From a virus, in the IMG/VR virus record IMGVR_UViG_3300037485_001284, positions 1 through 38,334 of that record: a stretch of 38,334 nt of DNA, one strand, 5' to 3'. The notes under the pieces are model-generated. The model had not been told where the DNA came from. It ran no database searches and was given only the letters and a program-made list of their open reading frames with translations. Both the position numbers and the translations under genes were made by a program. Numbering within the stretch: the stretch's first letter is position 1; every line of letters begins with the position of its first letter. Of the stretch, positions 2,158 through 38,334 are shown piece after piece.

Positions 2158-4488
2158 ATGATTCAAATTATCGGTTATAGAGATTACTACAACAACCAAG
2201 ATAAAATTTGGGATGTTTCGCAAAAGTTAATGCTTACTACTGAATATGATAACGTCGGTACAATGATTCAAAACTTAAATAAAGTTTTGGAAAAAATACC
2301 TTCTGAAGAACATTATAATTTGCACTACACGACTGCTAATTGTTTTGAGGCCCCACGACAATTTAAATCACAGACACTTATTCCTATAGACATAGATGAT
2401 ATTACCGAAGAAAACCTAGATGCTCATATTGCCGTTATTTCCCATGCTATTAATATTTCCGAAGATAAATTTATTCAAGTATCTAGTGGGCATGGCCTTC
2501 ATTTATTGTTTGAAGTGGACCACGTTATTGGATCCGTAGAAGAATTGCGTGAGCTCAAAAAGTCCTACGGTATTTTCTGCGACGTTATTCAAAACGCTCT
2601 AAAAAATGCTGAGTTATCTGGTAAAGTTGATAAGCAAGTTTTCAGACAATCAGGAACCTTGCGACTACCAGGAACAATTAACCGTTGTTTAAAGAAAACC
2701 GCTCTAACTTACGATGACACTAATTGTACAATCCTAAGCTCTGCTTACGTTGTGCAGTCTTTTGCCAATATATTGGGTGAAGTAGCTACTGCTGAAGCCG
2801 GAGAATCCATTGATTCTAGCTCGATCAGAGCGTTCCCACTACCTGACACAGAATACATCATTAAAGAATGTAAATTTCTAGATTGGAATTTTACATCTCC
2901 CGCCGAAGTCTCTGAGCCTGAGTGGTATGCTGCTTTATCCATTGTTGGTTATTTAGAGAATGGCGGCATGTTAGCACACAAAATGTCCGGCGGTCATCCA
3001 CAATACACCCATGCAAATACCGAATCAAAATTGGCCCAAGCAATTTCAGCTAGTGGTCCTAGAACATGCCAAAATATTGACATGCTGAGTGATAAGTGTA
3101 GAACTTGTCCGCATTTTGGGAAAATAACGTCACCTATTCTTCTCAAGGGACCAGGCTATATCAAAACCGCCGGATCCGGATTTTGGGACATAGGACCAGA
3201 TAAAAATGGCAACCCTAAACCAATTAAGCCTAATTATGAAGATCTTAGACGCTATTTTGAGAAAAAATATCAGTATGTTTCGACGACTTCACGGCAAGTT
3301 TGGATCTATGAAACACCAGTTTGGAAAGAGTACAAGAAGTCATTCTTAGAAGAATTTGCACAAAATAACTTCTCTCCTAGACCGTCTTCAGCGCATGTAC
3401 AAGAATTTACAAATTTAATTTTGAGATCAAATGTTGTCACGGATTCATGGTTCGATGAAAAAAGTGAAAACAAGGTCAATTTGTCCAACGGCGTTTTGGA
3501 TATGATTACACTGGAATTTTCGGGTCACGATAAAAAGTTTGGTTTTAAGCACGTTCTAAACCATGAATATAGTCCAGGGGCCGAGTGTCCTAGATTCGAT
3601 AAATTCATGGAGGAAGTGACCGTCGGACGACACTCTCTACAATCGGTTTTAATGGAGTTTATGGCCTACTCTATATCAGGTATGCCCTACATCCATCATA
3701 AGGCCCTAGTGCTTAGTGGTGAAGGATCCAACGGTAAATCAGTATTCTTATCAGTTTTGAAAAAGCTTGTTGGACATACTTCGTATTCTTCGCTTCTCAT
3801 GACTCAATTTGAATCGGATTATCACCGTTCAATGATGGTAGGTAAACTTTTCAACGTGGCCGAGGAAACACCTAGCCGAAGAAGTGATAGTTCATTTTTC
3901 AAAATTCTATCGTCCGGCGGAAGTTATCTGGCCCGTGAGCCCTACGGTAGACCTATCCAGGTAGAATCAAACCGCACCAAGTTAATTATGGCATGTAACG
4001 AATTACCTGAAATGAGTGACTTTAGTGGTGGATTTGCCCGACGACTTTTGATTGTGCCCTTTGACGCTACTTTTACCAAGAAAACGGCCGACGTTAAAAT
4101 TGAAGATAAGTTAACCCAAGAACTACCAGGGATTTTCAATAAAATCATAAAAGCCTACCAAAATTTGGTGGCCAACGGAAGATTTACTGAGTCTGAAGTG
4201 GTTGAGAAAGCCGTTGACGAATACCGTACTTCTCAAAACTCACTTGTTTCATTTATTGATTCTGAAATGATTTTCACAGACGAGGACGAAGACGAAGTGA
4301 ATTGCAAAGAATTTTTCGTGGAATATATCAGATATTGCCGTGATGTTGGGATCTATGCCGTAACTCCAAACAGGGCCGGAAGGGACTTGAGCCGCTTTTT
4401 TAACATTAAGAGCAGAATTTCCAATTTAGAAGGATCCACTATTCGGAAATATCCAAAATTAAAATTCAAGAAATCCCCAGGATTTTAA
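2158..4488 (+). CDS. Primase-helicase: AEP primase fused to SF3 helicase, 776 aa
   Basis: A replication initiator/elongation protein that should make primers and unwind DNA. The N-terminal domain (about 1-205) resembles archaeo-eukaryotic primases: IDIDD at 77-81 supplies the DxD metal ligands, followed by SGHGLHL at 110-116 and FRQSGTLRLPG at 162-172. The middle has a cysteine cluster (C304, C314, C317) that may bind zinc. The C-terminal half is a D5/SF3 helicase: Walker A GEGSNGKS at 521-528, Walker B-like LFNVAEE at 564-570, sensor asparagine N614 in MACNELP, and an arginine pair at 628-629. The ATG at 2158 follows an AAAAAAGGACAAGGG leader. It is transcribed alone, away from the repressor. 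Such fusions are common in plasmids, satellites and some phages; with the iterons at 8.3-8.6 kb it may be the origin-opening protein. Confidence 0.92.
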   Translation: MIQIIGYRDYYNNQDKIWDVSQKLMLTTEYDNVGTMIQNLNKVLEKIPSEEHYNLHYTTANCFEAPRQFKSQTLIPIDIDDITEENLDAHIAVISHAINISEDKFIQVSSGHGLHLLFEVDHVIGSVEELRELKKSYGIFCDVIQNALKNAELSGKVDKQVFRQSGTLRLPGTINRCLKKTALTYDDTNCTILSSAYVVQSFANILGEVATAEAGESIDSSSIRAFPLPDTEYIIKECKFLDWNFTSPAEVSEPEWYAALSIVGYLENGGMLAHKMSGGHPQYTHANTESKLAQAISASGPRTCQNIDMLSDKCRTCPHFGKITSPILLKGPGYIKTAGSGFWDIGPDKNGNPKPIKPNYEDLRRYFEKKYQYVSTTSRQVWIYETPVWKEYKKSFLEEFAQNNFSPRPSSAHVQEFTNLILRSNVVTDSWFDEKSENKVNLSNGVLDMITLEFSGHDKKFGFKHVLNHEYSPGAECPRFDKFMEEVTVGRHSLQSVLMEFMAYSISGMPYIHHKALVLSGEGSNGKSVFLSVLKKLVGHTSYSSLLMTQFESDYHRSMMVGKLFNVAEETPSRRSDSSFFKILSSGGSYLAREPYGRPIQVESNRTKLIMACNELPEMSDFSGGFARRLLIVPFDATFTKKTADVKIEDKLTQELPGIFNKIIKAYQNLVANGRFTESEVVEKAVDEYRTSQNSLVSFIDSEMIFTDEDEDEVNCKEFFVEYIRYCRDVGIYAVTPNRAGRDLSRFFNIKSRISNLEGSTIRKYPKLKFKKSPGF

Positions 4489-4647: not shown

Positions 4648-5232
4648 CTAGTTTTCCTTATTCAGTAGCCTTGAAATAGTAGCCTTATTGAGGCCATGCT
4701 TTAGGCCTATTTTAGACAACGATAGTCCGGCGGCCTTGTCTGTTTTTATCTCTAGTATCATCTCATTAGTTATCTTAAAGCGGGCCCGCCCGCAATGAAT
4801 CCCCTTAGACTGCGCCGCCTTGATTCCGGATTTAACCCTAGCAACGATATTTTCTCGTTCAAATTCAGCTAGTACGGCAAAAATCCCGAAAATCATTTTT
4901 CCGGCGGGTGTAGTTGTGTCAATTGATTCAGTAATAGAGACAAAATCAACGCCTAGGGCCTTTAATAGTTCCATTATCTCAATAAGGTGTTTTGTTGATC
5001 TTGATATCCGGTCAAACTTGTAAACCAAAACAGTGTCAAATTCCCCCGCCTTGACCTGATTCACCATGATATCAAATTGGGGCCTAGAGATTTTGCGGCC
5101 TGATTCACCATGATCTATAAAAAGGGCCGGCGTTGGCCAGCCCTTTAAAGTACAAAAATTTTTAACTGCCTCTAGTTGCGAGTCTGTTTTTTGTTCATCG
5201 GTTGAGACTCTAATATATGCTGCAATTTTCAT
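4648..5232 (-). CDS. Small serine recombinase (resolvase/invertase), 194 aa
   Basis: A site-specific recombinase that cuts both DNA strands through a serine-phosphodiester link. YIRVSTDEQ at 6-14 places the nucleophile at S10 with R8 beside it. The conserved YKFDRISRS block and the FERENIVARVKSGI long helix E follow, and a C-terminal helix-turn-helix of the HTH_7 type begins near residue 150. The length matches Tn3/Gin-type resolvases, not large serine integrases, so it is better suited to multimer resolution or inversion than to lysogenic integration. Its ATG overlaps the stop of the upstream gene (ATGA). It closes the leftward accessory operon. I found no obvious invertible fibre segment, so plasmid-dimer resolution is the more likely job. 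Confidence 0.93.
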   Translation of the reverse strand: MKIAAYIRVSTDEQKTDSQLEAVKNFCTLKGWPTPALFIDHGESGRKISRPQFDIMVNQVKAGEFDTVLVYKFDRISRSTKHLIEIMELLKALGVDFVSITESIDTTTPAGKMIFGIFAVLAEFERENIVARVKSGIKAAQSKGIHCGRARFKITNEMILEIKTDKAAGLSLSKIGLKHGLNKATISRLLNKEN

Positions 5233-5925: not shown

Positions 5926-6906
5926 TTACACCGCCTTAGTATTTTGTTCTTCATTTTCACCGAAAGCCGTGAATCCGGCGGCGTTTAAGATAAAATCCAC
6001 CGCCGCTTGAGCTTTAGAGGCCGCTTTATAGGCCATTGTTGTGTCCCCTTTAAAGACTTTCAACCAACCCTTAATATAAGCAGCGTTTTGGCCGTTTTCA
6101 AGGCTAGTATCAACGCCGCAATAACTCGCTAACATTGATGCGCCTAGTTCCGCCACTAATTCTTCGAAGGCGTAACCCTTGGAACCAAATGAATGATAAG
6201 AGCCGTCGAATCCTTCTCTTTTAAGACGTTTTGCGTGGCCGGTAGAATGAATCATTTCATGAAACATTGTTGAATAATAAGCGTCAACCGAATGAAATTG
6301 GGTTTTTTCCGGCATAATTAAAGAATCTTGAGAGGGTGAATAGGCCGCATTTTGCGCCGTCTTAATGCCTAGTAGTTGATTTTGACAAAAAGCATTGACC
6401 AAATTTTCAGCGGCAAAAACAGGCTTAAAATCCAAAACAGGGTCAATAAATTGGTTGAAATCAATCCCTTCAGTTTGTTCCAAGGTAAAAACGGCATATT
6501 GTTTCATTAACCAAAAAGATTTAACGCTTAATTCTGATTCATCTTCATTTTTATAATCTTCAGATATCTTCTTAATAGGTGAATAAAAGAAAACCGGAAC
6601 GGATTTAGAGCCCTTAATAACAGTTCCGCCCGCATCTCTAATTTGGTTAAAAGTAGCAAAAAAAGGATATTTTGTTGGAATCATACCCAATAAAAGGCGA
6701 TTGATTCCCCTATATTCTTTTCTAGTCACTAAATTTTGAGCATCTAAGGCGTTCCATGGTTTTTTCCATGGAATCACGTTAGACTCTAATGATTCAATGA
6801 TTTTATCAGTAATTAGTTCATGTTTTGATTTAACCTTCTCCACGGTCCCTAGTGTTTCACCTTGTTTGAATTTAGCTTTTTTTGTTGTCTTTTTAGGCGT
6901 TGTCAT
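5926..6906 (-). CDS. ardC: ArdC-type antirestriction protein, 326 aa
   Basis: The N-terminal 145 residues match the ArdC_N/TraC-like ssDNA-binding domain (PWKKPW near 47-51, TRKEYRGINRLLL at 61-73). The C-terminal part is a zinc-dependent peptidase-like domain with HEMIHSTGH at 216-224 (H216, E217, H220) and a downstream FEELVAELGA at 247-256 that supplies the third ligand. ArdC proteins, known from conjugative plasmids, bind incoming single-stranded DNA and shield it from type I and II restriction. Here it would protect the genome after entry. The ATG at 6906 follows AAAAAAGGACAAAACA. It opens a packed run of five genes. The N-terminal tail is lysine-rich. Its plasmid distribution supports the phage-plasmid reading of this genome. 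Confidence 0.9.
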   Translation of the reverse strand: MTTPKKTTKKAKFKQGETLGTVEKVKSKHELITDKIIESLESNVIPWKKPWNALDAQNLVTRKEYRGINRLLLGMIPTKYPFFATFNQIRDAGGTVIKGSKSVPVFFYSPIKKISEDYKNEDESELSVKSFWLMKQYAVFTLEQTEGIDFNQFIDPVLDFKPVFAAENLVNAFCQNQLLGIKTAQNAAYSPSQDSLIMPEKTQFHSVDAYYSTMFHEMIHSTGHAKRLKREGFDGSYHSFGSKGYAFEELVAELGASMLASYCGVDTSLENGQNAAYIKGWLKVFKGDTTMAYKAASKAQAAVDFILNAAGFTAFGENEEQNTKAV

Positions 6907-7491: not shown

Positions 7492-7773
7492 TTATTTCAG
7501 TTTTGCCGTCAATTTAGCTATTTGGGCCATGATTTTAGCTTTTTGTACTACTTGTTTTTCGGCCTTAACTGCGTCTTTCACTGAATCCTTGCATAGCTTA
7601 ATTGATTGATTCATCTCTTTTAATACGTCTTTAGATAATTTGCCATGATTTAACGATAGTCCGGCGGTGGTTAAGGCTTTTTGAGTGCAAGAATTGAGCT
7701 TAATTTCACTCGAATCATTACCAAATGAAGAAAGGGAAAATGTTAATAAAGCGATAATTGAGATAGTTTTCAT
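7492..7773 (-). CDS. Secreted helical small protein, 93 aa
   Basis: Residues 1-18 (MKTISIIALLTFSLSSFG) form a Sec signal peptide, with cleavage likely after FG. The mature part holds two cysteines about 43 residues apart (NSCTQK and KLCKDS) that could form a disulfide, followed by a long alanine/lysine-rich helix (residues about 60-93) with coiled-coil character. ATG at 7773 is chosen because of AAAAGGACAAAAC right before it; the longer frame begins upstream of this leader. It is expected in the periplasm or outside. An early-operon secreted phage protein may alter the envelope or exclude other phages. It shares the short segment TTAGL with the next gene. Confidence 0.72.
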   Translation of the reverse strand: MKTISIIALLTFSLSSFGNDSSEIKLNSCTQKALTTAGLSLNHGKLSKDVLKEMNQSIKLCKDSVKDAVKAEKQVVQKAKIMAQIAKLTAKLK

Positions 7774-7790
7774 GTTTTGTCCTTTTATAA

Positions 7791-7808
7791 TGACTCTAAA
7801 TTGAGTCA
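7791..7808. promoter_or_regulatory. Inverted repeat before the secreted helical protein
   Basis: TGACTC and GAGTCA form a perfect 6-bp inverted repeat with a 6-bp spacer, 18-35 bases upstream of the start codon. On the minus strand it overlaps a TTGACT. It may be an operator, or part of an internal promoter. Confidence 0.35.
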
Positions 7809-7838
7809 AATTGTTAAAATCGTTAAATCCAAATAAAA

Positions 7839-8081
7839 TTAATTGTAGATATCGCCGTAAACTTCATTGATGCATGATGTTTCTGAGATTTTTAGTTCGT
7901 CTGAATCGGCCATGCAATCCGTTAAGGCGATAATTTCAGAATTGGTTGATTCATCTACCGTTTGAGTCTCTAGATCAGTCAATCCGGCGGTTGTAAACGC
8001 TGCATCATCTAATTGAGAACGGTCAAAGGCTAGGGCCTGAAATGAGATAAAAAGCGAAAAACCAAGTAAAAAAAGCTTCAT
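7839..8081 (-). CDS. Secreted acidic small protein, 80 aa
   Basis: First gene of the accessory operon. Residues 1-18 (MKLFLLGFSLFISFQALA) are a clear Sec signal peptide with an ALA cleavage site. The mature 62-residue chain is acidic with two cysteines (TDCMAD, ETSCIN), suggesting one disulfide in the periplasm. The ATG at 8081 follows AAAAGGACAAACA, and a strong promoter lies 43-71 bases upstream. It shares TTAGL with the protein encoded at 7492-7773, where the same DNA octamer encodes the AG pair. No family recognised. Confidence 0.75.
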   Translation of the reverse strand: MKLFLLGFSLFISFQALAFDRSQLDDAAFTTAGLTDLETQTVDESTNSEIIALTDCMADSDELKISETSCINEVYGDIYN

Positions 8082-8123
8082 TGTTTGTCCTTTTAAAAGC
8101 GTTTTGCATCGTTGCGTTGTGGA

Positions 8124-8152
8124 ATCTTACACCTGATAATGTGCGTTGTCAA
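8124..8152 (-). promoter_or_regulatory. Sigma-70-type promoter of the leftward accessory operon
   Basis: Read leftward: TTGACA (8152-8147), exactly 17 bases, then TAAGAT (8129-8124). This is near consensus. It would start RNA near 8117 and drive the genes from 8081 down to the resolvase. Confidence 0.85.
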
Positions 8153-8260
8153 AACTAAAAAGAAGATTATGACGCTAGTCTGAAATTGTTACATAGTGTT
8201 AAATTGATTCAAGGTGTTAGTTGATGCGGGGTGTTGGGGAATCCGGCGGGGATTGGTGAA

Positions 8261-8576
8261 ATTACCGATTATTTGGTAGGGTTTACTCAAAAAATACCAA
8301 TTTGAAAAATGAAAATAATAGATAGAATTTAGTGGGTTATATTGTTTTGGTTACTGATTACCGATTACTAATTAAAAGAGAAGTATATAAACTCTATCAA
8401 TAAATTTGGTTTATATATAAAATCACCTTATATTTCTATTATAAAAAAGTATGGCGATTTTTTGCAAAAATCGGTATTAAAAAATAAAAAACGTTGTAAG
8501 TTAGTGATATTGATCTGTTATTCGGGATACCGATTGATAAAATAATCGGTAATGAATCGGTAATAAATCGGTAATC
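8261..8576. other. Probable replication origin (iterons)
   Basis: The motif AATCGGTA(A/T)T is present in seven copies: three head-to-tail 11-bp units at 8544-8554, 8555-8565 and 8566-8576, one more direct copy at 8469-8478, and inverted copies at 8261-8270, 8357-8366 and 8527-8535. Degenerate units continue to about 8591. They surround an AT-rich stretch that could melt. This is the layout of iteron origins of plasmids and some phages. The binding protein could be the primase-helicase or the HTH regulator; in the latter case these would be operators. Confidence 0.65.
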
Positions 8577-8717
8577 AGTAATTCAGTAATAAATAGATAA
8601 AATTCAATAAATCTTATTGAGCAACGCTTTAACTCGCCACGTTGACCTATCAACCGCCGGACTATCTTACATTGAATAAGGTGAATCATAAGCCCAATCG
8701 TTGCCGAACCTTTAGGA

Positions 8718-8750
8718 TTGACAACCGAATGGCTTAAGTATGCTTAATAT
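8718..8750 (+). promoter_or_regulatory. Possible rightward promoter of the late operon
   Basis: A perfect TTGACA (8718-8723) faces the late genes, but the -10 is unclear: TATGCT (8739-8744) is at 15-bp spacing and TAATAT (8745-8750) at 21. A promoter is needed between here and 8950; this is the best candidate seen. Confidence 0.35.
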
Positions 8751-8959
8751 CATAGGCTAGGCGCATCTTGTAGCCTTGAGAAAGCTTAAAATCCTATAGT
8801 TTTTATTTAGTTCGTATATTCGAGGGCGTACCCCCAAAGTTGTGTCCAACTTAATTTGTTTACGGACTCTTTGATTACTGAGCGTATTTATTACTTACAT
8901 GCTTGCAATTCCGCTTTCCTAGTGCTAACCTGGTCCCTGAACTTTAAAAAGGATTGTTT

Positions 8960-9518: not shown

Positions 9519-9629
9519 ATGTCTAAATTCAAGAAAACTACTGCAATAGTGGTTATTACAAATTTCCTTAAAATGGAAAATGGAAGCTATTTATTACTAG
9601 AATCTGGTAGTAAAATTATATTGGAATAA
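9519..9629 (+). CDS. Small protein, 36 aa
   Basis: A short ORF in the otherwise empty gap between the decoration-like gene and the fibre gene. The product ends YLLLESGSKIILE, a C-terminal strand pattern often seen in small phage tail-associated proteins. The ATG at 9519 has a weak AGG upstream; an alternative GTG at 9495 overlaps the preceding stop (GTGA) and would add eight residues through coupling. Its stop lies seven bases before the fibre gene start. Confidence 0.5.
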   Translation: MSKFKKTTAIVVITNFLKMENGSYLLLESGSKIILE

Positions 9630-9636
9630 GGATTAT

Positions 9637-10962
9637 ATGGCAGATACAAAAATTAGCGCATTAGTTACTAAAGCAACGCCTATCTCTACGGACATTATCC
9701 CTATTGTGGATAGCGCCGCAGGAGATAACAAAAAAGTTACAATGGATACTCTACCAGTATCTACTGCTACTCAGACGGCCATTAACGCTAAAGTATCTGA
9801 TGCTATTGTTGATGGGGTGACTACTGTAGCGCCTTCTCAAAACGCCGTATTCGATGCCTTGGCCACTAAGCAAGCTTCTATTGGATTTACTCCTGAAAAC
9901 GTTGCCAATAAAGATAACGGTGCTCTATCTACATCTATTACGACTTACCCTACTTCTGGGGCGGTTAAGACATACGCAGATACCAAACAAGCTGCTCTTG
10001 GATTTACTCCTGAAAACGTAGCGAATAAAGACAATGGAGGGCTATCTACTTCAACGACTACATACCCTACGTCTGGTGCGGTTAAGACTGCGGTAGATCT
10101 CAAGGGAGACATAACTGATATTCAGACTTTCACTTCATCGGGTACCTGGACAAAACCAGCGGGAATCCCTAAATACGTTGACGTTTACATGAGAGGTGCT
10201 TCTTCGGGTGGTGGTTCAGGTAGACGAGGTGCGGCCGGAACAATTCGGGTCGGTGGTGGTGGTGGTAGTGGCGGCGGTCTAATATATGTAAGATTTTTGG
10301 CTTCTGATTTAGGGGCTACTGAATCTGTACTACTTGGGGCCGGTGGAACCGGAGGGGCAGCAGTTTTAACAGATGATACAAACGGAAACGACGGGGCAAA
10401 CTCTGGGAATACAACTTTTGGAACCGTTCCATATATCCAAACATCTTTCTGTAACTCTGGGAAAGGCGGCGGAGTAGCGGCCGGAGGAACAGGCGGAACG
10501 GCCAACGGATCAACATCATTTGGTGCCGTTGCTCAAACGGCGGGTTCAGGAGCATTAGTAGCGGGTGGGGCGGGAGTAAGTGGAACAAACGTCATTGGAT
10601 TTCAAACAATGGGCGGAGCAAGTGGAGCAGGGATACCGGCGGCAAATACAGTAGCGGCCGGAGGCGGTGGAGGACGATCAACTTCACTTGGTTATATGTC
10701 TGGTGTTTCAGCAGCAGCAGCAGGGACGGCCGGAGGCGGTAACGGGGCAAATGCTATTTTGAGCAATTCAAAATTTGTATCTATCCCTATTGGTGGATCT
10801 GGTGCCGGTGGAGGAAGTAGCATTACTTCAGCTTCGGGTGCTGGCGGAAATGGTGCCGGTGGAAGTGGAGGCGGGGGCGGAGCAGCTTCGGCGAATGGGT
10901 TTGCTTCAGGTGCCGGTGGAGATGGAACCGACGCTATAGTAGTAATTATTACTTCTTTCTAG
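9637..10962 (+). CDS. Tail fibre/adhesin with glycine-rich tip, 441 aa
   Basis: A probable receptor-binding protein. Residues 1-75 form an N-terminal attachment region (MADTKISALVTKATPI). Two 39-residue repeats follow (about 79-156; GFTPENVANKDNG, YPTSGAVKT), typical of fibre shafts. A short bridge (FTSSGTWTKPAG, about 168-180) leads to a C-terminal 260 residues packed with GGG, GAGG and AGGTGG clusters, resembling polyglycine adhesin tips such as those of T4-like gp38. The glycine run should fold as stacked polyglycine II helices with variable loops contacting the receptor. ATAAGGATT precedes the ATG. The gene is separated from the second fibre module by the whole head and tail region and may be horizontally exchanged. 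Confidence 0.8.
   Translation: MADTKISALVTKATPISTDIIPIVDSAAGDNKKVTMDTLPVSTATQTAINAKVSDAIVDGVTTVAPSQNAVFDALATKQASIGFTPENVANKDNGALSTSITTYPTSGAVKTYADTKQAALGFTPENVANKDNGGLSTSTTTYPTSGAVKTAVDLKGDITDIQTFTSSGTWTKPAGIPKYVDVYMRGASSGGGSGRRGAAGTIRVGGGGGSGGGLIYVRFLASDLGATESVLLGAGGTGGAAVLTDDTNGNDGANSGNTTFGTVPYIQTSFCNSGKGGGVAAGGTGGTANGSTSFGAVAQTAGSGALVAGGAGVSGTNVIGFQTMGGASGAGIPAANTVAAGGGGGRSTSLGYMSGVSAAAAGTAGGGNGANAILSNSKFVSIPIGGSGAGGGSSITSASGAGGNGAGGSGGGGGAASANGFASGAGGDGTDAIVVIITSF
9871..10104 (+). repeat. Two 117-bp tandem repeats in the fibre gene
   Basis: Units start at about 9871 and 9988 (period 117 bp, 39 codons). They are similar but diverged at synonymous sites, so the duplication is old or under protein-level selection. 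Confidence 0.75.
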
Positions 10963-11161: not shown

Positions 11162-11797
11162 ATGAATGAATTAACGGTTAAATCGGAAGATATCTTCTAC
11201 CGCTGGAACGAACATTATAGAATCATCGAAGCGGTTGACTCCCTTAGTGGTAGAGTCATAGCTATTCAAGAAGACTTTCACGAAGAACATGCTCTTAATC
11301 CTGAAAATATGATGGAAGTTATATTGGATGGAACAAAGATCCTTGTACAAAAAGGCATGAGCATATCAAATTATGTTCCACCTAAACTAAATTACTCGAA
11401 GCCTATTGCAGATATCGTTGTCCAGCGGGTAAGCGAGGGCGACACACTTAAAAAAGCTATTAAAGGTACAGGCGTTTCCGCCGGAACAGTGCTTTCCTGG
11501 GCAACCAAGATCACTTCATTCGGGGATGAGCTTGCTAGAGCAAGGCTTGTCAGAGCAGAGATGATACAAGATACTATCCTTGAAGCGGCGGAAGAAATGA
11601 GTGCCGGAGGAATATCCAAAGGTGACTTAGACGCAAAATCTAAATCAATGGATCTATATAAATGGAGTGCTGAGAAAGACAGCCCCAATAGATTTGGTAA
11701 TAAAAAGGATCAAGGGTCCGGCGGTGCCACGGTTATTAATATTATAACCGGCGTTGTTAGAGATGAACCATTAACAGTAGAGGTAATTAGTGACTAA
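11162..11797 (+). CDS. Probable terminase small subunit, 211 aa
   Basis: The region from about residue 78 to 180 matches the Sf6-like small terminase layout: a helix-turn-helix (KPIADIVVQRVSEGDTLKK, GVSAGTVLSWATK), the FGDELARARLVRAEMIQDTILEAAEE helix, then DLYKWSAEKDSPNRFGNKK, the usual exit into the oligomerisation part. The protein would recognise the phage DNA and load it on the large subunit. The first 75 residues are an extra N-terminal domain of unknown role. It lies two genes before the large terminase, and overlaps the next gene by 8 bases. Start ATG 11162 has a weak SD. Confidence 0.7.
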   Translation: MNELTVKSEDIFYRWNEHYRIIEAVDSLSGRVIAIQEDFHEEHALNPENMMEVILDGTKILVQKGMSISNYVPPKLNYSKPIADIVVQRVSEGDTLKKAIKGTGVSAGTVLSWATKITSFGDELARARLVRAEMIQDTILEAAEEMSAGGISKGDLDAKSKSMDLYKWSAEKDSPNRFGNKKDQGSGGATVINIITGVVRDEPLTVEVISD

Positions 11798-18616: not shown

Positions 18617-20884
18617 GTGAAGTACAATTCGATTTACAATAAGTTCTCTTCTGGTGAATTGTCTCCCTACCTTAAAGGTAGAACGGACCTAGAAGAGTAT
18701 TTTTCAGGCGTAGACGATATGACCAACTTCCTCCCGCTGAAACAAGGGGGAGCTTATTTTCGTCCCGGCACAACCAATGTATCAGTAGACATTACAACAA
18801 GAAATTTTAACAACCGTATATTTAAGTTTAATCCAGCGGACGGATTTAGCTATATAGTTTTTGCCTCTCCAGGGAGCTCACTCGCAATTTCAAGGATTGA
18901 TGGTGGAGGACTTACAAACTGTACCATTACAAAGCCAACAACTATCTGGAATAAATATCCGGATTTTACGCTTGTCGCCGGAGCGGTTACAGCCTCGTTT
19001 GACCTAATAGATAATTTAAATTTTACTTCTTATGGTGATTTATTTGTTATTTGCGACGGTACAGGAGTCATGGCCCCAATCGTAGGGAAACGAACAGGGG
19101 CAACGACATTCATCATAGACTCTTATTTATTCCCAACATTAATATCTCCTACCACAGGAGTCCTTGATCTAGATGTTTCAGCAAAATATCCGATAAGATT
19201 TCCCTTCAAGGATACAAACATTGATGCAGGGATAAAGCTTAAGCCAAGCGCAGTCACAGGAAACATTACAATCACTTCCGAAAATGCCACAGGTACTCCT
19301 ATAAACTTCTTCACAGGAGATGTTATAGGTATGATGGTTAAGATAACCCATGCCGCCCAAGGCGGAGTAGCAAGAATAGTATCCAAGGTTTCCGACAGCG
19401 TAGTAAATGCCCAAGTGGTTATTGTTTCTTTTGGTGCTACTACCGCTTCTACAAACTGGGAAATATCTGCCTTTAATGCGATAGATGGCTACCCAAGAAA
19501 CTCTTGTTTCTTTCAAGGAAGATTATTTTTTGGTGGAAATATAAAGTTTCCTGATACGCTATGGGCTTCATTTCTTGGTAACATATATCACTTAATGAGT
19601 AAGAAATTTATCCAAGATGCTACAGCCGATGTTTCATCTATGAACTACTTTGGGCCCTTGAAAGATTCGGATCCATTTAACTTCACACTTGCAGCAACCG
19701 TAGCAAACTCAATTCAGTGGATGTACCCTTCTCAAACATTATTGGTAGGGACAACCGGAAACGAGTATTCGATTTCTGGAGGAACAGACAGCGTTTTAAG
19801 TATCTCCAACATTGAAGCCGCTCCTCTTTCATCTCACGGATCCGCAAGGGTCAATCCGGTAAAAGTAGGATCTTCTATTTTATTTGTATCTTATGACCGA
19901 AAAAGATTATTAGAACTTCCAAAAGACTTAAGACAATATACTAGTGCTACAGACCTGACTTCTTTATCAGAAGGAATTATCGACAAGTCCCTTTTGTCTA
20001 TTACCGATTCTGCACAGAACAAGTTATTTAACCTTCATGGTATATCCGAAATGGCTTTCCAGGAATCGGAAGGTATTTTGTGGTGTCTTTGCCGAACATA
20101 TTCTTATAGAACAACAAGCATGGTTTCTTTAGTTATGGACAAGACAACAAAGACTCTTGGATGGTCCAAGCACACCTTCCCAATGGGGTCTACTTTTGCC
20201 ACGATATCAGGCATTGCCTCTATACCTATTGCTTCACAAAACAATAGGGATTTTTTGTATCTTTATACAAACAGGCCCAACAGCTTTTTCTCATTAGAAA
20301 GAATGTGGATGAGAACAAGACAAACAAACATGAACACGACAGACAGTTTTGATACTGTAACCGCAAGTTATGGGTGCAACCATCTAGACTACGCCAAGCT
20401 ATTTACCGCCACTTCTGATACAGTTAGCATCGGGAATCAGTATGGAAGTACAAGAGATGTGAGTGTTATTTCATACCAGGGCGAATACCTTGGAGAATTT
20501 ACACCGTCACTTTTTGGCGACATAACAGTCCCAGGAGCCGTAGCAAAATCTCCTCTACTGGTAGGCTATAAGTACACAGGAACTATTAAGACTATGCCGA
20601 TTGAAGCGGGAGCACAGTTTGGTGTAGCCCAAGGATCTTCTAGAAGAGGCCATGAAATTTCTGTATTTTTAGACAGATCTAGAGGCGGAAAATATTCTCA
20701 GTCATTATCTCCAAACGAATACCCACTAGATACCACAGGTACAGCAGCGGTTTTAAAAACTGGTGAAATTAAACTTTCACTTAATGCTTCTCCAAACGAT
20801 ACCCAAACCATAATTAAGCAGGATCTTCCGTACCCGCTAACAGTTCTTTGGCTTCTCACCAAGGGATACACTTATGACGCTTGA
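18617..20884 (+). CDS. Tail tubular protein B-like nozzle, 755 aa
   Basis: Large tail nozzle protein of the T7 gp12 type, which forms the distal part of the short tail. The N-terminus has the signature FSSGELSPYLKGRTDLEEYFSG, then NFLPLKQGGAYFRPGT. The rest is beta-rich as expected for the propeller-like nozzle. GTG at 18617 directly follows the adaptor stop and has GAGG at a good distance. Its end overlaps the next gene by 11 bases. Confidence 0.92.
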   Translation: MKYNSIYNKFSSGELSPYLKGRTDLEEYFSGVDDMTNFLPLKQGGAYFRPGTTNVSVDITTRNFNNRIFKFNPADGFSYIVFASPGSSLAISRIDGGGLTNCTITKPTTIWNKYPDFTLVAGAVTASFDLIDNLNFTSYGDLFVICDGTGVMAPIVGKRTGATTFIIDSYLFPTLISPTTGVLDLDVSAKYPIRFPFKDTNIDAGIKLKPSAVTGNITITSENATGTPINFFTGDVIGMMVKITHAAQGGVARIVSKVSDSVVNAQVVIVSFGATTASTNWEISAFNAIDGYPRNSCFFQGRLFFGGNIKFPDTLWASFLGNIYHLMSKKFIQDATADVSSMNYFGPLKDSDPFNFTLAATVANSIQWMYPSQTLLVGTTGNEYSISGGTDSVLSISNIEAAPLSSHGSARVNPVKVGSSILFVSYDRKRLLELPKDLRQYTSATDLTSLSEGIIDKSLLSITDSAQNKLFNLHGISEMAFQESEGILWCLCRTYSYRTTSMVSLVMDKTTKTLGWSKHTFPMGSTFATISGIASIPIASQNNRDFLYLYTNRPNSFFSLERMWMRTRQTNMNTTDSFDTVTASYGCNHLDYAKLFTATSDTVSIGNQYGSTRDVSVISYQGEYLGEFTPSLFGDITVPGAVAKSPLLVGYKYTGTIKTMPIEAGAQFGVAQGSSRRGHEISVFLDRSRGGKYSQSLSPNEYPLDTTGTAAVLKTGEIKLSLNASPNDTQTIIKQDLPYPLTVLWLLTKGYTYDA

Positions 20885-34655: not shown

Positions 34656-36371
34656 CTAGTGTACATCGTACCAGGTTTTACCGGAACGTGATTGTCCGGT
34701 AAGTTTGCACTTAAATCCAAGGTCATCTCCTGCCTCTTCAATAGATTTAACCGCTATTATTTTGGTTTGTTCGGCGTATTCATCTTTAACGTAAACTTCA
34801 AATTCATCGTGGACATTTAAGCATGGGGTAAAAGGGATTCCTGCGGTGTCCATGTTGTCTCTAAACTTAACAGCCGCTAGTTTCATGGCAACCGCACCGG
34901 CATTTTGGAGCAAGGTGTTTAGGGCCGCATGCCTATGCCTTACGTTGAGGATCCTTCCATCAATGCCCGTAATTTGGTTGTTATTGGCGGTCAATTTATC
35001 CTGTATCTTCACGGTCAAATGTCTGTAGGCGGGCACCTTGTCCATAAACGAGTAACGCATTTTCCTACCTTCGGCCTTTAACTGTTCAGGAGTTCCTGAG
35101 ATCTTAATCGCACCTAGCTTCTCATCTCCTGCGCCGTAGAGTAAAGCATAGATGAATGTTTTAGCGTCATCTCTATTGGTTAATCCGGCGGCGTACATGT
35201 TTCTAGTATGCACATCTCCGTGAATCACTTCGTCCGAGTATGTCCCGTTGTCATATTGGTGGAGGTAATGGGCAAAACACCTGAGCTCTAGACCACTAGC
35301 ATCGGTCCCTACCATTGTATATCCGGCGGGAGCATAGAACAATTCCCTCACTTCCTTCCCCATGAAAGACCTGGGAGAGGGGATCTGAGCAAGGTTAGGA
35401 GAGGCGTGAGTACACCTGGCAGTAACCGCACCTAGGGTTATGACCCTTCCATGAAGCTTGCCGTTCTTAACATAATTTAGCCATGAATTATCACCTTCCG
35501 ATATCATGCCCACTAGCTTCTGAGTCTTGAAAAACTCTGAAAAAAGCTTGGCTTCTGGGTAGGGCAAGGCTTCCAAAACGTCTTCGGATAACTGAGCATT
35601 ACCTTTTTCAGTGAATTGTGTCGGTTTCCAGTCATACCGTTCGCACAGGTAGGCAATAATCTGGGATCTGCTTGCAGGATTAAAGTCTATTTTCTTAGTG
35701 GATCTTGGTAGTTTAATTATTTTGGGAGGTATTATAGTCTGAAGCTCTTTAGTGATTGCTGCAATTCTCTCTATGAGTGGTTTCTGTAGCGACAACGCCT
35801 TCTCAACGTTGAAGTAAACCCCTGCTTGCTCTTGTAAGTGGATAAATTTCTGAAATTCAGTCTCAATATACAAGGCCTTGATTGGCGGAAGTTTGTCGCC
35901 AATCGTTTGCCATAGCTTAAACGTGACTTCTACATCTTGGATGCAATATTTCTGCATTTCTGGGGACCATTTATCCCATTCAACGTGACTTCCCTTGGCA
36001 AGATTTAGCCTGTAACCAAACGCCTCAAGAGAGTAACTTCCAAAAAGATTTCCTGGAATGTTGTATTTCTTTTTAGCGTCCGCCGACATACCAATTTCTG
36101 GCCATACCATGCGGGAAATTAGGAGAGTATCCATTAATTTTGCATGGATCTTAATTCCAAATAGCTTCTCCAGGACCGGAACATCGTAGCAAATTATGTT
36201 GTGTCCAATCAAAACTTCGGCTTCCTGTATCTTGTTGATACCCTCATTCAAATTGGACACATCATAACTAAAAACTTCTTTTGTTATGATATCTTTTAAA
36301 ACAATAGACCAGACGTTTGTTACAGTATCCAGTAGACCGTTGGCTTCAATATCAAAAACAAAAGAAGACAT
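34656..36371 (-). CDS. DNA polymerase, family A with 3'-5' exonuclease, 571 aa
   Basis: Replicative polymerase of the T7 gp5/Pol I family. The proofreading domain has FDIEANG (D7, E9), HNIICYDVP (D63) and YCIQDVEVT (Y142, D146). The polymerase domain carries motif A GTDASGLELRCFAHY with D357, motif B RDDAKTFIYALLYG at 400-413 with K404, and motif C VHDEFEVYV with H521, D522 and E523. At 571 residues it is shorter than T7 gp5 but complete in all motifs; the thumb thioredoxin-binding loop is lacking. It acts with the AEP-SF3 primase-helicase and SNF2-type helicase of this genome. Confidence 0.96.
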   Translation of the reverse strand: MSSFVFDIEANGLLDTVTNVWSIVLKDIITKEVFSYDVSNLNEGINKIQEAEVLIGHNIICYDVPVLEKLFGIKIHAKLMDTLLISRMVWPEIGMSADAKKKYNIPGNLFGSYSLEAFGYRLNLAKGSHVEWDKWSPEMQKYCIQDVEVTFKLWQTIGDKLPPIKALYIETEFQKFIHLQEQAGVYFNVEKALSLQKPLIERIAAITKELQTIIPPKIIKLPRSTKKIDFNPASRSQIIAYLCERYDWKPTQFTEKGNAQLSEDVLEALPYPEAKLFSEFFKTQKLVGMISEGDNSWLNYVKNGKLHGRVITLGAVTARCTHASPNLAQIPSPRSFMGKEVRELFYAPAGYTMVGTDASGLELRCFAHYLHQYDNGTYSDEVIHGDVHTRNMYAAGLTNRDDAKTFIYALLYGAGDEKLGAIKISGTPEQLKAEGRKMRYSFMDKVPAYRHLTVKIQDKLTANNNQITGIDGRILNVRHRHAALNTLLQNAGAVAMKLAAVKFRDNMDTAGIPFTPCLNVHDEFEVYVKDEYAEQTKIIAVKSIEEAGDDLGFKCKLTGQSRSGKTWYDVH

Positions 36372-37700: not shown

Positions 37701-38334
37701 TTAATTAAAGTCAAGAATAATATCGCTAATCTTCTGTTTGTTATGAAGGGCTTCCAATACTCTTTCCTCTATGGAGTCTTCCATAATAAGATTTATCTCT
37801 GTAATTTTCTCATGGATCTGAGAGCCGTTTCTGTAGTTCCTGCCTTGACTCTGAATTTCTTCCTCTAGGGAAAAATTCCTGGAGTAAACAATGGAATATG
37901 CGGCGGCGGTTAAGTTTGCTCCGATTCCTGCGGCCTTACGGTTTGCAACCATAACTTTTATTAATGGATCCGTTTGGAATTTCTCAATCGCTTCGGTCTT
38001 CTCTTTGGAGTCATGCTCCCCTGTTACGATGCAAAATGAGATCTTATTATCCAATAGATATCTGGAAATATCCCCATAGTTTGCCTTGTAACTACACCAG
38101 ATGATAACCTTCTCGTCGCCAATTTCACCTAGGATTGAATCAATCGCTTGGATCTTTGGGTTTTCCTTAAAGCTATATGTGGTCCCGTCGTCAAGAGTAA
38201 CGAATCCGGATGCAATTTGGATAAGTCTTAAGCCTTTAGTAAGGGCGATATTGGCAACCGCCGCTTTAGACTCGCCTTCAGTTTGGATAAATGCCAAGAA
38301 GTCTTTGTGCATACTATCGTATGCCTTCTTCTGC
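37701..38334 (-). CDS. SNF2-type DNA helicase, C-terminal part (cut by window end)
   Basis: Second RecA-like domain of the helicase that starts at 790. Open from the window end with no internal stop: QKKAYDSMHKDFLAF at the start is the usual entry after a PEQ-KAY linker. Motif IV-like VIIWCSYKANY, motif V AAGIGANL and motif VI IQSQGRNYRNGS follow. It is 210 residues. The internal ATG at 38312 is not a true start. Joining base 38334 to base 1 leaves one leftover base on each side, so 3n+1 bases appear to be missing between them. Confidence 0.9.
   Translation of the reverse strand, partial: QKKAYDSMHKDFLAFIQTEGESKAAVANIALTKGLRLIQIASGFVTLDDGTTYSFKENPKIQAIDSILGEIGDEKVIIWCSYKANYGDISRYLLDNKISFCIVTGEHDSKEKTEAIEKFQTDPLIKVMVANRKAAGIGANLTAAAYSIVYSRNFSLEEEIQSQGRNYRNGSQIHEKITEINLIMEDSIEERVLEALHNKQKISDIILDFN

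Follow-up and report, generated by a model that had tools for sequence, protein, structure and literature searches.

What does a dense cluster of short repeats do in the largest noncoding gap of a tailed-phage genome? The window, the whole 38,334-nt stretch analysed here, is an almost complete tailed-phage genome opened inside a helicase gene, the two parts of which lie at 2-790 and 37701-38333 (window ends 1-790 and 37701-38334). Because the junction of this gene is out of frame, the record is short by a few bases, and its opening point is arbitrary. Terminase, portal, and tail genes are all present, the structural genes point rightward from about 9 kb onward, and a 571-aa protein (34656-36371) is a family-A DNA polymerase. 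No DNA similarity to known phages was found; by portal, the closest named phages are HTVC010P-like pelagiphages (about 45% identity). The gap itself (8082-8958) measures 877 bp, against 464 bp for the second largest, and a terminator scan across it found none.

Several neighbouring features were recorded alongside. An ArdC-type antirestriction protein with a metallopeptidase domain is encoded between the primase gene and the repeats (5926-6906, minus strand), and two small adjoining proteins with signal-peptide-like starts lie beside the repeats (7492-7809 and 7839-8081, minus strand), the second being partly conserved in the related locus L002. A weak inverted repeat (9544-9565 / 10771-10792, 77%) surrounds most of a glycine-rich tail-fibre-like gene; an invertible segment is therefore conceivable, the genome also holding a short serine recombinase gene (4648-5232, minus strand, 194 aa).

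The word AATCGGTA occurs seven times within 311 bp of the gap (8263-8573) and once more elsewhere in the genome, and the longer unit AATCGGTAAT has a single further exact copy outside the array, at 20000. Read 5' to 3', two minus-strand copies of AATCGGTA stand on the left, followed on the right by one plus-strand copy, one minus-strand copy, and three tandem plus-strand copies. As a null, the gap was shuffled 3,000 times with its dinucleotides preserved: the best 8-mer reached at most five copies, and did so once, compared with seven within 400 bp of the real sequence. The array comprises the following features:

8261-8270, minus strand: iteron AATCGGTAAT, left arm, exact match
8293-8302, minus strand: degenerate iteron AATTGGTATT, two mismatches
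8350-8359, minus strand: degenerate iteron AATCAGTAAC, two mismatches
8351-8366: perfect 16-nt inverted repeat, left arm TTACTGATTACCGATT, paired with 8566-8581 at a distance of 199 nt
8357-8366, minus strand: iteron AATCGGTAAT, left arm, exact match
8364-8463: proposed melting site, an AT-rich core with a GC of 0.18, lower than in any other 100-bp window of the genome
8455-8473: 8-bp inverted repeat CGATTTTT-TGC-AAAAATCG, read from the sequence
8469-8478, plus strand: iteron AATCGGTATT, right arm, one mismatch to AATCGGTAAT
8526-8535, minus strand: iteron AATCGGTATC, opposite orientation, 8-bp core exact
8544-8553, plus strand: tandem iteron unit 1, AATCGGTAAT, exact
8555-8564, plus strand: tandem iteron unit 2, AATCGGTAAT, exact
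8566-8575, plus strand: tandem iteron unit 3, AATCGGTAAT, exact
8566-8581: perfect 16-nt inverted repeat, right arm, paired with 8351-8366
8573-8582, plus strand: degenerate iteron AATCAGTAAT, one mismatch

A further degenerate match lies at 8364 (minus strand), and the single spacer base that follows each tandem AATCGGTAAT is G, A, and C in turn. The iterons thus flank the lowest-GC stretch of the genome with mostly opposed orientations on its two sides, and the right arm of the short inverted repeat overlaps the iteron at 8469. Three perfect tandem 11-bp units, an 8-bp inverted repeat at 8455-8473, and a location in the largest noncoding gap between divergent operons had all been described in the initial annotation, and each was recovered exactly. 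Its count of at least four more copies of the form AATCGGTA(A/T)T holds for three, which fit exactly, but the fourth (8526-8535) deviates at its last base. The array matches no family in an Rfam scan, and an 8-mer scan of the window detected no second array resembling crr of P4.

Two features, both on one polypeptide, describe the candidate reader of these sites:

2158-4488, plus strand: 776-aa P4-family primase-helicase, proposed initiator (TIGR01613, AF2 model, fold match)
4183-4467, plus strand: winged-helix domain, proposed iteron reader (residues about 676-770, AF2 model)

The protein scores 193.5 bits against TIGR01613 over residues 439-735 (cut-off 108.7), with an AEP domain at about 1-207 and an SF3 helicase at about 430-660. 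In its AF2 model (pLDDT 88), the N-terminus is AEP-like, an SF3 core follows, and the C-terminus folds as a helix-helix-helix-wing unit, so that primase domain, helicase, and winged helix are predicted to share one chain. The best solved fold match is SaPI5 PriRep1 (7ola; VIA Z 32.9 over 337-774, next family 27.7), which is also the best solved match by sequence (family profile A4 to 7ola, E 5e-54), and the AEP domain (1-207) matches that of cyanophage S-2L PrimPol (Z 12.6). Within the winged helix, the model places a putative recognition helix at 737-748 and a wing at 753-766, and profile A4 matches the hRFX1 winged helix over residues 692-765 (E 0.0012). The array lies 3.8 kb from the primase stop codon, not directly downstream of the gene.

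A single-sequence primase search of viral contigs returned no matches; relatives were first reached by a portal search, and primase alignments then opened a wider family. Two sibling genomes, G002 (38,396 bp; 63% primase identity) and G003 (42,302 bp; 49%), share the arrangement of the window. The same-position gap in both holds the strongest 8-mer cluster found, with six or seven copies of a different word, CTGTTACC. In G002, long inverted arms (19 nt, 95%, 175 nt apart) enclose a very AT-rich core, which is likewise the lowest-GC stretch of the genome. G003 is less regular: three of its six sites are antiparallel, its core is not its lowest-GC stretch, and its array lies about 4.3 kb from the primase. 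The comparison with related phages that had been proposed as a check shows position and two-armed layout kept and iteron spelling changed. A changed iteron sequence in a constant layout points to DNA that would be read by a co-changing protein.

One noncoding block in the same gap (8791-8869) has 82% DNA identity to positions 2541-2619 of L002, the G002 locus, and a related ACCCCCCAAAGTCTTGTCC occurs in G003; therefore, the iterons changed while some neighbouring noncoding DNA did not. This block lies just upstream of the rightward operon, 2.3 kb before terS, and is possibly a cos/pac site or the main promoter.

The primases show where the co-change might reside. Up to alignment column 545, G002 is nearer to the window (69%) than to G003 (51%), whereas in columns 545-605 it is nearer to G003 (88%, against 54% with the window), and over the last 84 columns G002 and G003 share 32% identity, compared with 17% for the window and G003. 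Thus, the two genomes with a common iteron resemble each other more in the helicase core and C-terminus than would be expected from the rest of the protein. In columns 521-640, identity between G002 and G003 rises to as much as 95%, against 51% in the first 545, probably through recombination in the helicase core or strong constraint on it.

Beyond the siblings, noncoding two-strand arrays were found in many primase relatives, usually directly 3' of the primase gene and each with its own spelling, for example GAATCGTAAGG (L113), AAAGTCGGTAAA (L122), and ACCTGTCACA (L126). Under a strict automatic rule (noncoding, both strands, related-primase loci), 15 of 47 loci had an array in the 1.5 kb that follow the matched part of the primase gene, compared with 7 of 392 other 1.5-kb blocks; the strict scan gave no array at 26 of the 47. 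Among portal loci without a detected primase, 6 of 74 had one. The opposed-arm layout around a low-GC core also recurs: across 26 arrays, 127 of 160 sites are oriented consistently with it, against a null of 105.2 ± 3.9. The motif lists contain weak cases (L101, L120, and L123), on which we did not rely. Similar arrays, ATCTGTCC and ACCTGTCC, occur in two portal relatives without a detected P4-family primase (L013:2520-2858 and L024:2340-2615), contigs that are fragments and may stop short of the primase.

Half of the named phages sampled down the ranking (7 of 14) carry such an array downstream of the primase, most clearly Lactobacillus phage CL2, Lacticaseibacillus phage R18.1, and Mycobacterium phages Mitti and Nutello, and array-bearing isolated phages include those of Lactobacillus, Listeria, Lactococcus, and Mycobacterium. 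None of the 14 named-phage regions has an annotated origin, the AcaML1 record having no annotation.

Iteron spelling followed primase divergence at close range: the primases of L108 and L111 (98% identical) accompany the same iterons, and those of L114 and L118 (about 83% identical) altered ones. Over 22 primase-array pairs, iteron similarity correlated with similarity of the primase C-terminus (Mantel r 0.41, p 0.0004) and about equally with that of the helicase core (r 0.37), so the correlation does not pin the reader domain. It lends indirect support to the predicted specific binding of iterons by the initiator. We accordingly set aside the C-terminal domain as a specificity determinant on correlation alone, it being inseparable there from the helicase core.

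Taken together, we consider it very probable that 8261-8582 is the replication origin of this phage, of the two-armed theta type known from P4, SaPIs, and PICIs, and that it is read by the 776-aa primase-helicase. A plasmid-type iteron origin, as first proposed, is the best-supported reading, given the sibling layout, the arrays beside related primases, and the P4 yardstick, and it can be sharpened to the PICI/SaPI/P4 type. Two likely partners had been named with it: P4-family membership, the sibling layout, and the arrays beside related primases favour the primase-helicase, whereas the HTH regulator found no support.

A position between divergent operons would also suit operators of a phage regulator controlling both, for instance the 100-aa protein at 1665-1967, a weak HTH_3 match, and a promoter-like site lies inside the core (8467-8438, minus strand), although such matches are no more frequent than in shuffles. 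In relatives, however, the array comes after the primase gene, and the genes on its two sides often share one direction; a usual operator has less than some ten sites arranged as opposed arms around the lowest-GC stretch of the genome; and the equivalent P4 repeats are annotated as ori. We therefore regard an operator function in place of an origin as unlikely, while the array may serve as origin and operator at once.

Packaging is a still weaker contender. Cos regions can contain repeated terminase sites, and the array lies 2.6 kb upstream of terS, whose product, the small terminase subunit (11162-11797), would bind it as a cos/pac signal; yet arrays in relatives go with the primase, not the terminase, and the block at 8791-8869, which retains 82% identity in the sibling where the iterons differ, is the better candidate, which makes this explanation very improbable. 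Least credible is that the serine recombinase (4648-5232) recombines or resolves DNA at the array, or that the array serves in partition. The genome does encode a resolvase-family protein, but resolution sites contain a small number of dyads and a crossover core of two nucleotides, which the 10-11-bp direct repeats in opposed arms do not resemble, and no partition genes were recognised among the scanned proteins.

For the origin read by the primase-helicase, the layout suggests a mechanism, in which origin activity and bidirectionality, like iteron binding and melting, are inferred. The 776-aa protein would use its C-terminal winged helix to bind the 10-11-bp iterons flanking the AT-rich core, and two oppositely placed helicase assemblies would form, because the sites mostly point opposite ways on the two sides. 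The SF3 motors would then melt the core, the AEP domain would prime, and the phage family-A DNA polymerase (34656-36371) would extend the primers, the expected outcome being theta replication through a circular intermediate. GC skew, one of the checks first proposed, was dropped as uninformative: in three genomes the cumulative skew is lowest 0.4-1.5 kb from the array, but this minimum tracks divergent transcription and gene direction, and skew at third codon positions does not switch there.

The result places a likely origin in a little-known environmental phage group and offers a simple rule for locating origins in other phages with P4-family primases. The many initiator-iteron pairs with varied spellings make the specificity of self-loading helicases directly testable; iteron and winged helix may co-change fast, and it is about as likely as not that these phages form a natural series of origin-initiator specificities, readable as a code. 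Origins of this kind may have been mapped before in phages of dairy streptococci and lactococci that carry such primases. The mechanism is already known from satellites; less expected are the fast iteron change and the breadth in ordinary tailed phages, which suggests that full phages commonly carry an origin of the satellite type. This breadth is less expected because PMC6092414 states that the PICI layout is shared by no other known bacterial replicon.

Among known systems, P4 provides the yardstick: its record annotates ori and crr repeats, most of which, including the ori type-1 repeats, read CTGTTCACC, and the scan used here recovers them, ori included. P4 alpha, a TIGR01613 protein of 777 aa, belongs to the same family as the 776-aa protein and is nearly equal in length, and in P4, as in the window, an AT-rich stretch is accompanied by short iterons on both strands. 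The siblings' CTGTTACC is CTGTTCACC minus one base, and the window iteron AATCGGTAAT is further from it. In P4, however, sites are split between ori and a crr region that lies beside alpha, whereas only one array was found in the window, and P4 is a satellite, whereas the window phage is tailed and encodes structural proteins of its own.

PICI origins, as described in PMC6092414, have two iteron sets around an AT-rich region 3' of rep; the window shares the two flanking sets, and SaPI5 PriRep1 has the same fold as the 776-aa protein from residue 337 to the C-terminus. A PICI element is a satellite without a full head and tail gene set; the window phage has its own terminase, portal, and tail genes and is therefore a tailed phage, PICI-like in origin only. 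The C-terminal domains of SaPI Rep and SCCmec Cch2 bind iterons, according to PMC7581432; Cch2, a helicase of the D5/Primase_Cterm type that contacts direct repeats through this domain, resembles the proposed window reader in this respect, but its iterons are just three, of 5 nt each, and its primase is separate, compared with a fused primase-helicase and seven or more sites in the window. Placement also differs: the PICI origin lies directly 3' of rep, an arrangement found in many relatives but not in the window, where the array is removed from the primase and lies between divergent operons, or in G003. The main P4 ori also lies away from alpha, so a 3' position defines PICI placement rather than mechanism, and the array fits the PICI/SaPI/P4 kind in every feature tested except placement.
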